Shown one piece after another: positions 55,432 to 64,000 of a DNA stretch of 64,000 bases; within the stretch, counting starts at the first letter, position 1; every line of letters starts with the position of its first letter. Where the stretch lies: the NCBI GenBank assembly GCA_022450155.1, contig JAKUQR010000005.1, positions 62,001-126,000 of the forward strand, in the 5' to 3' direction. The notes beneath the pieces are model-generated. The model did not search any database. It was not told the DNA's origin and worked only from the letters and a program-made list of their open reading frames with translations. The position numbers and the translations under genes were made by a program. Source of the stretch: Gammaproteobacteria bacterium. GTDB taxonomy: Bacteria > Pseudomonadota > Gammaproteobacteria > Arenicellales > UBA868.

Positions 55432-55622
55432 TCACCACTCCATCGTCACCTGCGACCGGGCAGCCCAGCATCGTTTTATAAGCGCTGGCTGAACACCTTA
55501 CCCGGCCGATGGGAAAAAGCAACCCCGCGCCGACCCCGGCTTCAGGATACTTTCTATACAATTGGTCCTTTGTACAACCCTCGGTAGCCTAGAATGCGGG
55601 TCCCTCGAGCTGGCATTGAATT
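55432..55622. promoter_or_regulatory. Divergent promoter region, ABC gene / tryptophan degradation genes
   Basis: This 191 bp region holds the start sides of both transcription units. A candidate plus-strand promoter is TTTGTA with TAGAAT after 15 bases, about 30 bases before the formamidase start. A small palindrome TTGTACAA overlaps its -35 area and could be an operator. No regulator gene is encoded next to it. Confidence 0.4.
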
Positions 55623-56498
55623 TTGAATTGGAAGAGCCTGTCTCCTGAGGAACTAGAGCGGGAATACTCACCGAGCAGTATGGTGGGCGACATTGAGCCA
55701 TTCATATCGTGGTACACCACCGAGTCCCAACGGGTACGAGATAACTACGAGGAACGCCTGATTACAAACCTGGCCTATGGTGCTAATCCGGAAGAACAAC
55801 TGGATCTTTTCCTACCAGCCACGCCAGCCAACTCCGGAAATCTACCTCTGCTGGTTTTTGTTCATGGGGGTTACTGGAAAACACTCTCCAAAGATGACCA
55901 CAGTTTTCTTGCCAGCGCCTGGACAGCAGCCGGCTACGCTTTTGCGAGCATCAACTATGGACTTGCGCCAGATTCAAGTCTTTCTCAGATGATTTCACGT
56001 TGCAGACGTGCACTGAACTGGCTCGGTGAAAACAGCCGAAACTACGGCTTTAAAAAAAGAAGGATTCATGTCATGGGACATTCGGCAGGTGCCCATCTTC
56101 TGGCCTGCGCAATCAGTCCGCGTATCCAGGATCACGACCACTCAGCGCTTCTCGCTCGACCTCAACGCGCAATCCTTATCGGTGGTATCTATGACCTCGA
56201 GCCGATTTCTCAAACCTACGTCAACGAACCACTGGGATTATCGATTGAAAGCGCTAGAGCACTCAGTCCACAGTTTTATGATACCGATCCGCTTGTCTCT
56301 CTGGACATCGTCTATGCAGAACATGAGACTAAAGAGTTTATAAGACAATCCAAAGATTATGCTGACAAATGCTCAAGAATTACCGCCGATACAAAACTCA
56401 GAGAAGTCCAGGGTCGACATCATTTTGACATTATGTGCGACATTGCTCGTACCGACACTGTGATCTTTCAGCAGTTGTCAGCATATCCGGAAAAGTGA
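55623..56498 (+). CDS. Alpha/beta hydrolase, AFMID-like arylformamidase
   Basis: This enzyme of 291 residues probably hydrolyses N-formylkynurenine to kynurenine. The oxyanion-hole motif is HGGYW at 81-85, and the nucleophile elbow is GHSAG with S154; the histidine of the triad is likely in GRHHFDIM near the end. HGGxW is the hallmark of the animal/fungal type of kynurenine formamidase (AFMID), which differs from the metal-dependent bacterial KynB. The start is taken as TTG, since MNWKSLSPEELEREYSPS is the typical N terminus; the ATG 19 codons later would remove it. kynU follows after ten bases. Confidence 0.88.
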   Translation: MNWKSLSPEELEREYSPSSMVGDIEPFISWYTTESQRVRDNYEERLITNLAYGANPEEQLDLFLPATPANSGNLPLLVFVHGGYWKTLSKDDHSFLASAWTAAGYAFASINYGLAPDSSLSQMISRCRRALNWLGENSRNYGFKKRRIHVMGHSAGAHLLACAISPRIQDHDHSALLARPQRAILIGGIYDLEPISQTYVNEPLGLSIESARALSPQFYDTDPLVSLDIVYAEHETKEFIRQSKDYADKCSRITADTKLREVQGRHHFDIMCDIARTDTVIFQQLSAYPEK

Positions 56499-56508
56499 GG
56501 TCGACCAG

Positions 56509-57789
56509 ATGACAACTCCGTCTCTTGACACATTGCGCAGCAGTCAGAGTTCCGGTCTGGCAGACGCCCGTAAACAAGACGAACTTGATCCCTGCTCCAG
56601 CATCAGGGAGCTTTTTGATTTACCACCTGACCTGGTTTATCTCGATGGTAACTCGCTTGGCGCAATGCCTAGGATGGTACCAGAGAAGATCCTTGAAGCT
56701 GTCACCGATGGCTGGCGTACTGGGCTAATCCGAAGTTGGAACGATCGGAACTGGCACGTACTGCCTTTGACTCTCGGCGATCGACTGGCTCCTCTGATGG
56801 GTGCCAATGCCGGGGAAGTACTGGTGGTCGATTCTACTTCAATCAATCTGTTTAAAACGTTGTCAGCCGCCCTAGAAATGCGCCCAGGCAGAACAGAGAT
56901 CGTGTCGGAGCGCCATAATTTTCCGTCCGACCTTCATATCATTCAGGGTGCAATCAGGCACTATTTCCCCCAACACAAACTTGTTGAAGGGAAGGAAAGT
57001 GATGGATCCATAGTTGAACTGATCAACCCATCCACCGCAGTGGTGACTCTTACCCACGTCAGTTACCGTACGGGAATGATTCGCGACATGAACCGAATCA
57101 CACAGGCGGCGCAACAGGCCGGCGCGCTGGTTATCTGGGATCTGGCGCACACACTCGGTACAGTACCCGTTGATTTGAATGCAGCTAATGTCGATTTCGC
57201 GGTAGGCTGTACATACAAGTACCTTAATGCCGGGCCCGGCGGACCTGCATACCTTTTCGTCGCCGATCGGCACATTGCACACGCTGAGAATCCATTGACA
57301 GGTTGGCAGGCCCATACCGATCCATTTTCTTTTGACACGCGCTTCAAGCCGGCAAGCAGTATAGATAAATTTCGTTGCGGAACACCTGCGGTTCTTTCCT
57401 ATATCGCTCTAGAATCCAGTCTGGATATATTTGAACAGCTGGATATGCACGCCATTCGTGAAAAATCAAAACAGTTGACGACCCTGTTTGTCGACCTGGT
57501 GGAATCATTCTGCAGTGCATATCCCCTGCAGCTGGTAAGCCCACGTGACAGCGATCAAAGAGGTAGCCAGGTCTCGTTCAGTCACCCCGAAGGGTGGCCA
57601 ATCATGCAGGCACTGATCGCCCATAGGGTCATCGGCGATTTCAGAGCGCCGGACCTGCTGCGATTCGGGTTTGCTCCGTTGTACACGAGGTACGAAGACG
57701 TTTGGCTGGCGGCATCGATGCTGTTCCATATTCTCCAGACCGAATGCTGGAAGGACCCGATCTATGCGGCTCCAAAACTTGTTACCTAA
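56509..57789 (+). CDS. kynU: Kynureninase
   Basis: Kynureninase cleaves kynurenine to anthranilate and alanine with PLP. The 426 residues show the family motifs FDLPPDLVYLDGNSLGAMPR, ADVLVVDSTS-like GEVLVVDSTSINLFK, IWDLAHTLGTVPVDLN and the PLP lysine K237 in CTYKYLNAGPGGPAYLF. The C-terminal half has RGSQVSF and DFRAPDLLRFGFAPLYTRYEDVW in blocks. It lies directly after the formamidase-like gene and before the indoleamine dioxygenase gene, with the typical start MTTPSLD. Confidence 0.96.
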   Translation: MTTPSLDTLRSSQSSGLADARKQDELDPCSSIRELFDLPPDLVYLDGNSLGAMPRMVPEKILEAVTDGWRTGLIRSWNDRNWHVLPLTLGDRLAPLMGANAGEVLVVDSTSINLFKTLSAALEMRPGRTEIVSERHNFPSDLHIIQGAIRHYFPQHKLVEGKESDGSIVELINPSTAVVTLTHVSYRTGMIRDMNRITQAAQQAGALVIWDLAHTLGTVPVDLNAANVDFAVGCTYKYLNAGPGGPAYLFVADRHIAHAENPLTGWQAHTDPFSFDTRFKPASSIDKFRCGTPAVLSYIALESSLDIFEQLDMHAIREKSKQLTTLFVDLVESFCSAYPLQLVSPRDSDQRGSQVSFSHPEGWPIMQALIAHRVIGDFRAPDLLRFGFAPLYTRYEDVWLAASMLFHILQTECWKDPIYAAPKLVT

Positions 57790-57870
57790 ACGATTATTTA
57801 CGAACAATCGAGCAAAATATCGTCAACCCGGCTTACCCTAGGACAGGGTGTAAAATATTCCGGATAACCA

Positions 57871-58974
57871 ATGCCTGATCTCTATAACATCGATCCTGTC
57901 AATGGATTTCTGCCGGCACAAGCACCCCTTGAGCTGCTACCTGACGAATTTGAGATCTGGGAATCAACGGCTCGAGAGTTCTCTGGATTACTGAATGCCA
58001 GCATTTTCAGAGCCTGTGCTGAAGCCATGCCGGTCATTGACGATATCTCCTCTCTCCACACGCCAATGGAACTGGAACGAGCTATGCTCCTGTTGTCTGT
58101 ATTTGGCCATGGCTTTGTCTGGCAGGGTTACGAGTCCTCTGGTTATGTGCCTGAAAATATTGCGATTCCCTGGACTCTGGTTGCTGACCGGCTGAACCGA
58201 CCACCGGCTCTCGCCCATGCGTCGTTGGTTCTGAATAACTGGAAACGTCTGGATCCCAACGGCCCCATCAGCCTGGGCAATCTGAGCACATTAATTCAGT
58301 TTCATGGCGGCCTTGACGAGTCATGGTTCTACCTGGTCACAACCGAGATTGAGGCCATCGGCGCAAGCGTTCTCAGAGAATTCGATCTTATCCAGAGGGC
58401 TCTGCCGCCTAATGACTTCGAACAGATCGAATGCTCACTCCAAGTCGTTCGAAAACACCTGATCGCATTGAACGCCACATTGGACCGTATGTATGAACAC
58501 TGCGACCCTTATATTTTCTACAACAGGGTAAGACCTTTTCTGGCTTCATTCGAATCCATCGAGTACAGGGGCTGTAAGCAGAATCCAAGGAACTACTTTG
58601 GCGGCAGTGCCGCCCAGAGCTCTTTGCTTCAAGCTATAGATGCAATGTTCGGTATCACACACAAAGAAGAACCATCGCGGACCTATCTGATCAGAATGCG
58701 CTCCTACATGCCCACCGGGCATGCTGCGTATATCAATGCACTGGAAGCTGACAGGCCGCTGGTTGGTGCCATTGAGCGACATGATGGGTGTCGGCACATC
58801 TACACAGCATGCGTTGAAGCACTGATTGATTTTCGTCAGTCCCATCTTAAGATGGTGACAAAATATGTGTCATCACAGATGTCGCAAACAGGCCCCGGCC
58901 ACACTGGTACCGGCGGTACCGACCCCGTGGTGTTCTTGAAGCAGGTAGCTAAAGATACCGCACCGTTTGGCTAA
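57871..58974 (+). CDS. Indoleamine 2,3-dioxygenase family protein
   Basis: This haem enzyme opens the pyrrole ring of tryptophan to give N-formylkynurenine. The 367 residues show the IDO family features: RNYFGGSAAQSSLLQ (the family FxGGSAxQSS element), the proximal haem ligand H325 in FRQSHLKMVTKYV and the GTGGTD loop at 346-351. It is not the bacterial tryptophan dioxygenase KynA, which is about 280 residues and lacks these motifs. IDO is best known from animals and fungi, with scattered bacterial forms. The gene comes after kynU with an 81 bp gap that may hold its own promoter. Substrate specificity is inferred from context. Confidence 0.93.
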   Translation: MPDLYNIDPVNGFLPAQAPLELLPDEFEIWESTAREFSGLLNASIFRACAEAMPVIDDISSLHTPMELERAMLLLSVFGHGFVWQGYESSGYVPENIAIPWTLVADRLNRPPALAHASLVLNNWKRLDPNGPISLGNLSTLIQFHGGLDESWFYLVTTEIEAIGASVLREFDLIQRALPPNDFEQIECSLQVVRKHLIALNATLDRMYEHCDPYIFYNRVRPFLASFESIEYRGCKQNPRNYFGGSAAQSSLLQAIDAMFGITHKEEPSRTYLIRMRSYMPTGHAAYINALEADRPLVGAIERHDGCRHIYTACVEALIDFRQSHLKMVTKYVSSQMSQTGPGHTGTGGTDPVVFLKQVAKDTAPFG

Positions 58975-59006
58975 GCGACCTTTAGTTTGAACATGAAATA
59001 GTTGCC

Positions 59007-60098
59007 ATGGCCAGAAAGATCCCGCTAGAAAGATTCGATGATTTGCCGGTGATGGCGCCGCAAATTCTGCAGGAACCCGATAACCGGCCGAGCCCCGATT
59101 TTGTTCGCCTGAATCTGAACGAAAACCCGCTCCCCCCCTCTCCCAACGCCATAGCAGCGATGCGCGAAGCCATTGGCGTGTCGAACCGGTACCCGGATCA
59201 TTCCTGTTCGGCGCTGGCCAAGATCATCTCAGTACGGACAGGAATAAGCCCGGAACGGATTGTGTTTGGGAATGGGAGCGGGGAAATGCTTTTTGCCGCT
59301 GCCGCTATTGCCGTCGAGAATGGTGATCAGGCCGTTCTGCCAGTGCCGACCTTTGCCCCAGTTGGCAAAAACGTACGACTCGCCGGTGGTAAAGTGATCA
59401 CAGTACCGGTACTGGAAAACGGATCCAACAACGTAGATGCTATGCTGGCTGCTGTCAGCGAACAGACTGCCCTGGTCTATTTGTGTACCCCCAACAGTCC
59501 AACAGGCGGGATGATTGATGCGGACCAAGTCCGGCTTGCGGCCGAGCGAGTACCCGACCAATGCCTGTTGATGGTGGACGAGGCCTATCATGAGTTTGCC
59601 GCCTGGGAAGGCGGCCCCGATGTACTTTCCTTGTTAGCCACTCGCAGCGGTCCGTGGGTGGTCATCCGAACCTTCTCTAAGGCATACGGACTGTCCGGGG
59701 CCAGAATTGGTTATGCCATCACGGGCAGTCCAAGCCTGGCGATCGGGTTCTCGAAAATTCGCATAGGCTTTAATGTCAATCGGATCGCCCTGGCCGGTGC
59801 CTGTGCAGCAATGCTGGACCAAAACTATCTTGAGATGGTCCTCGACACCGTCAGCCGCGAGAGACAACGCCTTTCCTTGGCACTGCAAGAATTCAAACTC
59901 CGCGTATATCCTTCTGCCGCAAATTTCTTGTTGGCCCGCGCTGATAGTTCATCCGAATCGATTGTAGAGCGGCTGGCTGAAAAAGCCATACTTGTCCAGT
60001 ATCTGCCCTGGCCGGACGAAAACGGATCTCTCAGAATCACAATCGGCATTTCCGCTGAGAACGACGCTCTTCTGAACGCGCTGGCGGATATTCTGTGA
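59007..60098 (+). CDS. HisC-like class I/II aminotransferase
   Basis: This PLP aminotransferase of 363 residues belongs to the histidinol-phosphate aminotransferase group. Marks are LNLNENPLPPSPNA, CTPNSPTGG, VDEAYHEFA and the PLP lysine K225 in FSKAYGLSGARIGYA. Members also act on phenylalanine, tyrosine or tryptophan, so with the kynurenine genes upstream (32 bp after the IDO gene) an aromatic aminotransferase role is at least as likely as histidine biosynthesis. No his genes are present. It converges with the SDR gene with a 27 bp gap. Confidence 0.92.
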   Translation: MARKIPLERFDDLPVMAPQILQEPDNRPSPDFVRLNLNENPLPPSPNAIAAMREAIGVSNRYPDHSCSALAKIISVRTGISPERIVFGNGSGEMLFAAAAIAVENGDQAVLPVPTFAPVGKNVRLAGGKVITVPVLENGSNNVDAMLAAVSEQTALVYLCTPNSPTGGMIDADQVRLAAERVPDQCLLMVDEAYHEFAAWEGGPDVLSLLATRSGPWVVIRTFSKAYGLSGARIGYAITGSPSLAIGFSKIRIGFNVNRIALAGACAAMLDQNYLEMVLDTVSRERQRLSLALQEFKLRVYPSAANFLLARADSSSESIVERLAEKAILVQYLPWPDENGSLRITIGISAENDALLNALADIL

Positions 60099-60919: not shown

Positions 60920-62053
60920 TCACAGGATTGACGTGCCATATTTCTGGATTGCATCGTCCGACAACGTCAGGCCAATTCCAGGATCGGGGTTGAGCGTCAG
61001 CCAACCGTCCTCTATTTTCGGCGGATTAACGAACAGCTCAGCCTGCAGCGGATCACGCTCCGGATCAGTGAACGATTCCACAATACAGCCCGAAGGGCTC
61101 GAAGCAACCAGTGGCGCGTGGATGAAACAATCGTGATGTGGCGCGATCTGCACATGGTTCAGTTCACACAGTGCTGCCATTTTGCGCCCCTGAGTAAAAC
61201 CGCCAAACATAGTACAGTCAAACTGCAGAATCTGGATAGCCTGTTCTTCAAGCAGAGCCCGGCATCCGTAACTGGTTAATTCACTCTCTCCGGCAGACAA
61301 CGGGATATTCGTTCTCTGTGCCAACAGCTTTAATTCCCTGCGATCGTCCTGCCAGCGCACAGGCTCCTCAAGCCACCGTGGTTTCACCGGTAACATGGCC
61401 TCGGCTGCTGCAATAGCAGTTTCGAGATCCCAGGCCCGGTTCACGTCGACCATCAGATCTCGATCATCACCGATAACATCACGCACAACTTCCAGTCGCT
61501 CTATGTCTTCCGACACCGACAACCCGCCAACCTTTGCCTTGAACCCCCTGTGTCCCTGCTCTTTCAGTTTGTGAAGCTCATCACGCAACTCTGATTCGTC
61601 TTTTCCATCTCGATAGTAAGCACAAGTCACATAGCACGGTACTGAATTTCGATAGCCGCCAAACAGCTGGTACAGTGGTAGGCCAGCTGTTTTGCCGACG
61701 ATGTCCCAGCAGGCAATATCGACGGCCGCTGTGATCTTTATCAGTGCATCCCTGCTCCAACCACTTTCATACGCTTTTCTTTGTGAAGTCAAAGCAAAGA
61801 GCCGCTCGTAAAGTCTTTCAGGTGCCAGTGGGTCCGCACCTACAATCTCGTCCGCGATCCCGGATTTGAAAGCCGAAATCACCGGCTCCACGGTGCTATA
61901 GCAGGTCGCTAAGCCGAAGCCAGAAACGCCTTCATCAGTCGCAAGTCGGACCAGTAATTCATTTGCCCGAGGCACAACGAAGTGACTTACCCAATGTGGG
62001 CGACCATCGTCAGGTGCTTGCAGAACGTATGCTTTGATCTGAGTCACTCGCAT
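60920..62053 (-). CDS. Enolase-superfamily enzyme (mandelate racemase/muconate lactonizing type)
   Basis: This TIM-barrel enzyme of 377 residues abstracts a proton next to a carboxylate. The base motif K172-A-K174 lies in RGFKAKVGG. Metal ligands are likely D203 (MVDVNRAW), E229 (RWLEEPV) and E256 (LSAGESELT), and a histidine pair stands at 306-307 (IAPHHDC). KxK with a histidine on the other side fits racemases or acid-sugar dehydratases of the MR group. The ATG at 62053 has GAGTGG upstream; a GTG four codons earlier is possible. The neighbours (SDR, AceE-like E1) suggest a catabolic set for a sugar acid or similar; the substrate is unknown. Confidence 0.9.
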   Translation of the reverse strand: MRVTQIKAYVLQAPDDGRPHWVSHFVVPRANELLVRLATDEGVSGFGLATCYSTVEPVISAFKSGIADEIVGADPLAPERLYERLFALTSQRKAYESGWSRDALIKITAAVDIACWDIVGKTAGLPLYQLFGGYRNSVPCYVTCAYYRDGKDESELRDELHKLKEQGHRGFKAKVGGLSVSEDIERLEVVRDVIGDDRDLMVDVNRAWDLETAIAAAEAMLPVKPRWLEEPVRWQDDRRELKLLAQRTNIPLSAGESELTSYGCRALLEEQAIQILQFDCTMFGGFTQGRKMAALCELNHVQIAPHHDCFIHAPLVASSPSGCIVESFTDPERDPLQAELFVNPPKIEDGWLTLNPDPGIGLTLSDDAIQKYGTSIL

Positions 62054-62107
62054 TGTCAGTGCCACTCAGGTTAAGTCGTCAGTATTAACGGCGAATCGGC
62101 GTTCCAT

Positions 62108-62138: not shown

Positions 62139-64000
62139 TTACGACGAATCCAGACTAGCTGAAAGGATCGATTGTGCATCGAGCCGGTAGGCCTGGTAAA
62201 GCTCAGTCAGCGTGCCCGATTCCCCATATCGATCGACCCCCAACCCGCACACACGGTGCCCCGCAACCGCACCGAGCCAAGTCAGCACCGACGGATGCCC
62301 ATCTGTAATCGTCACGATACGGACACTCGATCCAATCGCGGAGAGTAGTTTTTCGATCTGTGCGCGACACGTTCTTGATCCCCGGCGCCGTACACGTTGT
62401 GCTTGTATCCAGCCCCGGTGAAGACGATCTGCTGAAGTAATGGCAAGCACCGCAGTCGAGCCGGGAGATCGGCGGTTGAGTTCGTCGCAACTCTCGATTA
62501 CCTGGGGTACGACCGCACCGATGTATGCAATCACAACAGAACAGGAAGATTGCGGAGGCACCAGCCAGTATCCCCCATCTATAATCTCAGACGTCAGCGT
62601 ATCGTCAATCTCTCGCTCTAACTGCTCTATACGACGTGTCGTAAGGCGTAAGTACACAGATCCACCGCGACGGTCATCAAGCAGATCAGCATCTGTGTCA
62701 GTGACTTCCGACTCAGTGAGTTCTAGTTGTAAATATGAAAATGCAAACCCCATAATCATTGAAAGCTCGTCAGTGAACGCTGGCTCGAATGATGCCAAAC
62801 CTGGCTTACTCATCCCGATCAGAGGTGTCCCAATAGACTGATGAGCGCCGCCTTCTGGCGCCAACGAGATACCTGAAGGTGTGGCGACCAACAGAAAACG
62901 TGCGTCCTGGTAACAAGCATAGTTCAATGCATCCAGGCCCCTTTCGATAAACGGATCGTAGATCGTGCCCACCGGTAACAGGCGTTCTCCGAAGATCGAA
63001 TGAGAAAGCCCCGCAGCAGCGAGGAGAAGAAACAGGTTGTTTTCAGCAATACCAAGCTCAATATGCTGTCCCGTTGGCGATGCCCGCCATCTATGCATGG
63101 TTTGCAGTTCCTCTACGGTAAACATGTCTGTCTGACCATTGACATGGAACAACCCGCGCCGGTTTACCCACCCACTTAGATTGGTTGACACTGTCACGTC
63201 GGGCGACACAGTAATGATCCTTTGGGCGAGTTCAGTATCCTGCCTGGCTAAACTCGCCAGTATTCGGCCAAATGCGTCCTGGGTCGATATTTCGCGCCCA
63301 TCCGGTCGTGGAAAGGGATCAGGCACCGCGACCACAGGTGAAGTTTTTCGCCTTTGGTTTACCGTGTAAAAAGGCACCTTATCTAGGAACAAGCGCAATT
63401 CGGACCCCGACACACCTGTCCCCGCCGATGGCGACCACTCTTCTCCGTCATCGATACTATGGTCAGACTTCAGGTGCTTTATCTGGTCAGACGTCAGCAT
63501 TCCGGCGTGATTGTCTTTGTGGCCAGCCAGTGGCAGTCCGAACCCTTTAATGGTATAGGCGAAAAAACAGATTGGTCGGTCGCTCTTTACCCCCTCAAAC
63601 GCCTCCAGCATGCTTTCGATACAGTGACCACCAAGATTGGTCATCAAGGTATTCAGTACACGATCGTCATACCGTGCCAACAATTCAGACACGCCGGGGC
63701 GAGACCCAATGTCCGCCTGAAGTACTTCTCGCCAAGCTTCACCACCTTTGTACACCAAGGTGGAGTATTTGGAATTAGGGCAAGAATCTATCCACTGCCG
63801 TAAAGCATCGCCGCCGGGTAGCTGAAATGCCCTGTGCAGGAGTTTCCCGTACTTGATCGTTACCACCTCCCATCCCATACTGACAAACAGCCGATGGAAA
63901 CGTGTTAACAAGCGATCTGAAATTACAGCATCCAGACTCTGGCGGTTATAGTCGACGATCCACCACAGATCACGCACGCTGTGCTTCCAGCCTTCGAGCA
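62139..64000 (-). CDS. AceE-like pyruvate dehydrogenase E1 component (5' end outside the window)
   Basis: Only the C-terminal part of this gene is visible; the frame is open to the window edge. The part seen (about 620 residues) includes SVRDLWWIVDYNRQSLD, a block shared with homodimeric PDH E1 (AceE), KGFGLPLAGHKDNHAG, the pyrimidine domain with GIAENN (the cofactor-activating glutamate) and the C-terminal transketolase-like domain. It is a TPP enzyme that decarboxylates a 2-oxo acid. Neighbouring aceF and lpd genes are not in view, so it may be a paralog used with a different acid. Its 3' end lies 86 bp from the enolase-superfamily gene. Confidence 0.88.
   Translation of the reverse strand, partial: LEGWKHSVRDLWWIVDYNRQSLDAVISDRLLTRFHRLFVSMGWEVVTIKYGKLLHRAFQLPGGDALRQWIDSCPNSKYSTLVYKGGEAWREVLQADIGSRPGVSELLARYDDRVLNTLMTNLGGHCIESMLEAFEGVKSDRPICFFAYTIKGFGLPLAGHKDNHAGMLTSDQIKHLKSDHSIDDGEEWSPSAGTGVSGSELRLFLDKVPFYTVNQRRKTSPVVAVPDPFPRPDGREISTQDAFGRILASLARQDTELAQRIITVSPDVTVSTNLSGWVNRRGLFHVNGQTDMFTVEELQTMHRWRASPTGQHIELGIAENNLFLLLAAAGLSHSIFGERLLPVGTIYDPFIERGLDALNYACYQDARFLLVATPSGISLAPEGGAHQSIGTPLIGMSKPGLASFEPAFTDELSMIMGFAFSYLQLELTESEVTDTDADLLDDRRGGSVYLRLTTRRIEQLEREIDDTLTSEIIDGGYWLVPPQSSCSVVIAYIGAVVPQVIESCDELNRRSPGSTAVLAITSADRLHRGWIQAQRVRRRGSRTCRAQIEKLLSAIGSSVRIVTITDGHPSVLTWLGAVAGHRVCGLGVDRYGESGTLTELYQAYRLDAQSILSASLDSS

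Follow-up and report, generated by a model that had tools for sequence, protein, structure and literature searches.

A gene cluster within the window analysed here (a 64,000-nucleotide stretch, contig C5:62001-126000 of a 3.2 Mb draft genome that is 95.5% complete) probably represents a bacterial AFMID-kynU operon for tryptophan catabolism, one that has an animal-type indoleamine 2,3-dioxygenase (IDO) in the place of tryptophan 2,3-dioxygenase (TDO) and that would make anthranilate, formate and alanine. This kind of pathway is already known, and it is varied here by the use of an animal-type, IDO2-like IDO for TDO. In the proposed route, IDO would open L-tryptophan with O2 to give N-formylkynurenine, an alpha/beta hydrolase would take off formate to give L-kynurenine, and the kynureninase KynU would cleave the latter into anthranilate and L-alanine, the substrates of all three enzymes being predicted from sequence. 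The identities of the genes, their order and conservation, their catalytic residues and the lack of a detectable TDO were observed directly. Beyond the window, genome content was searched exclusively by family profiles.

The cluster was recovered as the preliminary description had laid it out, with three adjacent plus-strand open reading frames assigned to their families by Pfam and NCBIfam: the arylformamidase (AFMID/KFase)-type hydrolase (55623..56498, 291 aa), KynU (56509..57789, 426 aa) and IDO (57871..58974, 367 aa). The hydrolase starts with TTG, and its orthologues with ATG. A HisC-like class I/II aminotransferase gene (59007..60098, + strand, 363 aa) is a possible fourth member, and the co-directional genes, which run from 55623 to 60098, are separated by gaps of 10, 81 and 32 bp. 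The operon-like arrangement that had been proposed is borne out by the short gaps and by the hydrolase-KynU-IDO order, which is kept within the genus (three other genomes) and in G007, a genome from another genus in this family; the cluster is therefore not a product of chance or of assembly artefact. The named records that carry it (L017-L020) are marine gammaproteobacterial MAGs. With its counterparts in the relatives, the window's IDO shares 64-80% identity, its KynU 68-86% and its hydrolase 54-80%. In one of these genomes (G003, L017) the contig begins within kynU, so the hydrolase is not visible there. Since the flanking genes are syntenic in relatives too, gene order alone is weak functional evidence, and it is the enzymology that ties the genes together. 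The cluster is a real and conserved tryptophan-to-anthranilate operon, and probably a functional one.

The three genes are likely co-transcribed. The intergenic region between the hydrolase gene and a divergent ABC ATPase gene (55432..55622) is presumed by its position to hold the promoter, although no sigma-70-type site scored above chance; nor did any terminator. GC and GC3 of the cluster are native (51.2% GC for IDO and 51.7% for the window), giving no sign of recent acquisition. The HisC-like gene, 32 bp downstream of IDO, adjoins IDO in relatives as well; its product falls just below the hisC cut-off and is a paralogue of two better hisC copies elsewhere in the genome, and the protein may transaminate aromatic amino acids or kynurenine, or have nothing to do with the pathway. 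Further downstream lie an enolase-superfamily (MR/MLE) gene (60920-62065), also found in G007 (L020) and absent at that spot in L019, a relative within the genus, and a gene for a 612-aa protein (62139-63977), conserved in relatives, whose resemblance to AceE (pyruvate dehydrogenase E1) sets in at profile position 249, the N-terminal part being absent.

The dioxygenase matches PF01231 over its full length (310 bits against a cut-off of 26; residues 4-363 on profile positions 4-409 of 412), and this is the only family matched, with no match to the TDO profile PF03301, in keeping with its first assignment. The motifs noted in the preliminary description are also real, both in the hydrolase, as detailed below, and in IDO, where the proximal haem ligand H325 (58843-58845) aligns with human IDO1 H346 and the GTGGTD loop occupies residues 346-351. 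Positions R231 and T379 (human IDO1 numbering) are kept. In the same numbering, the pocket consists of H126, L129, V130, F163, Y164, T167, F226, Y227, R231, L234, G262, S263, A264, A265, H346 and T379. Ten of these residues (V130, F163, F226, R231, L234, G262, S263, A264, H346 and T379) are conserved in human IDO1, and most of the ten bind or line the tryptophan site in its structure (PMC5700043). Human IDO1 departs from the window protein at Y126, C129, F164, S167, F227 and G265, while the vertebrate IDO2 pocket is identical except for Ile at position 164. All other prokaryotic IDOs aligned, including those of haloarchaea, the genome's own second IDO and the one at locus L155, have His167 and Gly264, and most have Tyr226; the sole exception among those sampled is the IDO of a Bacteroidetes MAG, which has the window-type pocket at 45% identity. 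That gene (L021:7893-9095) is a lone animal-pocket IDO with no kynU nearby. The 50 best Foldseek matches listed for a structure model of the window IDO were all IDOs, at a TM of about 0.47; given this value and the poor quality of the model (pLDDT 63, six sequences), it was not taken as evidence.

Phylogeny points in the same direction. In an unrooted tree, the window IDO, its relatives and the Bacteroidetes protein group with vertebrate IDO1 and IDO2 with support of 100/99, and in a second unrooted tree the grouping holds at 100/98 once long branches are removed. In both trees, animals are represented by two sequences, obtained through PDB-chain alignments, and fungal, Gemmatimonas and Streptomyces sequences are absent. 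IDOs have been described as falling in three mixed branches, of which the one shared by mammals, fungi, Gemmatimonas and Streptomyces is the only one that seems to degrade tryptophan efficiently (PMC4217691). On the sequences compared, the window IDO falls on the mammalian side of these branches. Among the bacteria examined, the animal-type IDO occurs in very few: PF01231 was present in 9 of about 368 other gammaproteobacterial genomes sampled and in 7 of about 397 genomes of a phylum-wide sample (one match lying below the family cut-off), and the window-type pocket was seen in none of the sampled proteins from both surveys whose pockets were read. Around the gammaproteobacterial IDOs sampled, BLAST at the limit used detected neither kynU nor a window-like hydrolase nearby, and a protein search of the phylum-wide IDO neighbourhoods gave no window-like hydrolase among the matches listed. 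A transfer, one of the two histories suggested earlier, may have come from a eukaryote; the GC content is native.

Within the genome of the window, a PF03301 profile search of the 95.5%-complete draft found no TDO. A TDO-kynU pair does occur on a short contig (L023) of G003, a member of the same genus whose genome also has the IDO cluster; this genome is rated 7% contaminated, so the pair may be foreign. The window IDO would be expected to convert L-tryptophan to N-formylkynurenine. An unlikely alternative makes tryptophan catabolism incidental: the enzyme would be slow, like IDO2, or would act mainly on a different indole (D-tryptophan, 5-hydroxytryptophan, a hydroxylated compound or tryptamine). 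His126 and Thr167 are indeed found in vertebrate IDO2, which is a poor tryptophan enzyme, and slow turnover is described for those characterised bacterial IDOs that do not belong to the mammal/fungal branch (PMC4217691). In addition, the distal Thr167 corresponds to the low-affinity state of vertebrate IDO2, and the S167T substitution in human IDO1 sharply raises Km (PMC11593294), so that the tryptophan flux could be small, which counts against the operon reading. However, the tight linkage of IDO to a kynureninase and a formamidase-type hydrolase, kept across genera, argues for N-formylkynurenine as its product.

The genome also holds another IDO, of the distal-His type, and another kynureninase, whose 236 bits miss the cut-off. 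The two lie about 10 kb apart on contig C20 (about 33.7-45.2 kb; L045/L130) and count against assigning the tryptophan route to the cluster alone. Between them are hydantoinase A/B, acyl-CoA ligase, TauD-like, RidA-like and arylmalonate-decarboxylase-like genes, and the region possibly serves another indole-compound route. A second IDO and second kynureninase of this type share one contig in G002 also.

The hydrolase matches the BD-FAE and Abhydrolase_3 families and carries the motifs HGGYW (residues 81-85) and GHSAG (152-156), with nucleophile S154 (56082-56084) and the candidate acid and histidine E235 and H267, E235 standing where KFase has Asp. The profile search agreed with its original placement, giving alpha/beta hydrolase families only and no match to the KynB cyclase profile PF04199. 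It aligns with Drosophila kynurenine formamidase at 92 bits over nearly the full length, with HGGYW, GHSAGAHLL and HFDI in register, and is predicted to be an N-formylkynurenine formamidase. Its score against Lipase 1 (9n8r) is higher, at 111 bits, and its structure model (pLDDT 79) fits Lipase 1 (Z 27.3), 2pbl (26.7) and KFase (25.6-26.0) almost equally, so that the fold, tied within about 1.5 Z, does not decide function. These scores, and the presence of a cyclase-family (PF04199) gene on contig C18, speak for a rival view in which the hydrolase is an unrelated esterase or lipase, adjacent by chance, and another enzyme, such as the C18 cyclase, performs the deformylation. The tree speaks against this view, which is quite unlikely: the hydrolase forms a clade (99/99) with Drosophila KFase, on a long branch, three hydrolases from the same taxonomic order that adjoin kynU and the hydrolase that opens an Ensifer AFMID-TDO-KynU operon, whereas Lipase 1, 2pbl and several transporter-linked homologues fall outside. 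The C18 cyclase gene, for its part, has no kyn neighbours and is not near kynU, and at E 1e-10 its product matches no NCBIfam model and so is not recognised as KynB. The phylogenies of both enzymes agree with the preliminary description, the hydrolase grouping with Drosophila KFase (99/99) and not among other esterases, and IDO with the vertebrate enzymes (100/98).

KynU is plainly bacterial in sequence. It scores 326 bits against TIGR01814 (equivalog cut-off 246), has its PLP lysine at K237 (57217-57219) and matches the Pseudomonas enzyme (1qz9) at 393 bits versus 151 bits for the human one. The module had been called eukaryote-like as a whole; this description suits IDO, by tree and pocket, and a hydrolase akin to Drosophila KFase, but not the kynureninase. 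In Pseudomonas numbering, the lysine is K227, and W64, G281 and T282, which form the kynurenine-preferring signature, are kept. In human kynureninase (3e9k), the positions aligned with these three, or their direct neighbours, hold His, Ser and Asn, known determinants of 3-hydroxykynurenine preference. Furthermore, no full-length protein resembling kynurenine 3-monooxygenase (KMO) was seen among the PF01494 matches in the genome. Together with the kynurenine-type residues, this makes anthranilate the expected product, as had been proposed.

A possible anthranilate sink lies on contig C18, where a fused FAD-monooxygenase/OYE gene (NF006101, 1261 bits) is adjoined by benzoate-CoA-ligase-like, enoyl-CoA hydratase, acyl-CoA dehydrogenase and RidA-like genes, with a TRAP-type transporter nearby. 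The two-domain architecture is that of 2-aminobenzoyl-CoA monooxygenase/reductase, and anthranilate could be converted to its CoA thioester and then degraded through this locus. The NF006101 model is named salicylyl-CoA 5-hydroxylase, which counts against the role, and the link to anthranilate is accordingly a tentative one.

De novo NAD synthesis through kynurenine was also considered, with the cluster as the front end of a eukaryote-like pathway from tryptophan through 3-hydroxyanthranilate and quinolinate to NAD. The genome encodes a 3-hydroxyanthranilate 3,4-dioxygenase (HAO; NF009763, 254 bits, above the cut-off) and no NadA was found by family search, as this route would have it. Nevertheless, it is highly improbable, because KMO and a convincing NadC are missing from the genome as searched: the sole PF01729 match, at 24 bits, comes from a nicotinate-phosphoribosyltransferase-like open reading frame. 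The setting of HAO is moreover catabolic, since the gene (L044, contig C16:14000-32000) lies beside genes for an ACMSD-like amidohydrolase, UbiD/UbiX, an extradiol ring-cleavage dioxygenase and FAH, and Hut genes.

Comparison with known systems places the tryptophan-to-anthranilate operon more precisely. Bacterial kynA/kynB/kynU operons perform the same three reactions with the same type of kynureninase, and the window cluster differs from them in having IDO for TDO and an alpha/beta hydrolase for the metal-dependent cyclase KynB. The pairing of an AFMID-type hydrolase with a kynureninase, part of what was first called unusual, is ordinary in bacteria, being found in Ensifer, Deinococcus and several genomes of the same order. 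For instance, plasmid pB of Ensifer adhaerens (L182) carries AFMID-TDO-KynU with a hydrolase of the same clade, and Deinococcus radiodurans (L178) has a kynU-kynA-hydrolase operon with a more distant homologue in last place; both use TDO, not IDO. As kin of the hydrolase adjoin kynU in such operons, the gene is not exotic, and bacterial use of AFMID-type formamidases, with predicted activity, is well supported by gene context. Nor is the trio peculiar to this cluster, since IDO, kynU and an alpha/beta hydrolase also lie side by side on annotated haloarchaeal plasmids (Natronococcus, Natronosalvus, Haladaptatus), accompanied in some cases by an acyl-CoA synthetase or AMP-binding ligase. These clusters differ in gene order and strands, and their IDO of another branch (distal His167) and distant hydrolase suggest that the combination was put together there independently. 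With vertebrate IDO1 and IDO2, the window IDO shares the family and the tryptophan-pocket residues, including the IDO2-like His126 and Thr167, at 31-36% identity; it differs in residing in a bacterial operon, and its function is a predicted one. The mammal/fungal branch has published bacterial members in the enzymes of Gemmatimonas aurantiaca and Streptomyces scabiei (PMC4217691). No paper describing an IDO-kynU cluster was found in the open-access literature, to which the search was largely confined.

Altogether, the cluster extends a bacterial AFMID-kynU route that is standard in other respects, in that IDO joins TDO as an enzyme for the first step, and it bears on the origin of animal IDO. 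The function of vertebrate IDO2 is unresolved because this enzyme degrades tryptophan poorly, and an IDO2-like distal pocket in a bacterial tryptophan-degrading operon would provide a simple system for asking whether such a pocket can sustain true catabolism, and of which indole. A more speculative proposal is that marine bacteria hold a catabolic IDO lineage that is sister to, or the source of, animal IDO and that has kept the IDO2-like pocket, with His126 and Thr167, as part of a functioning operon for tryptophan. The importance of the finding would rise if the enzyme is efficient, or if a rooted tree nests the animal proteins among such bacterial enzymes. If the proposal is true, the ancestral low-affinity type of IDO would be a genuine tryptophan-degrading enzyme.
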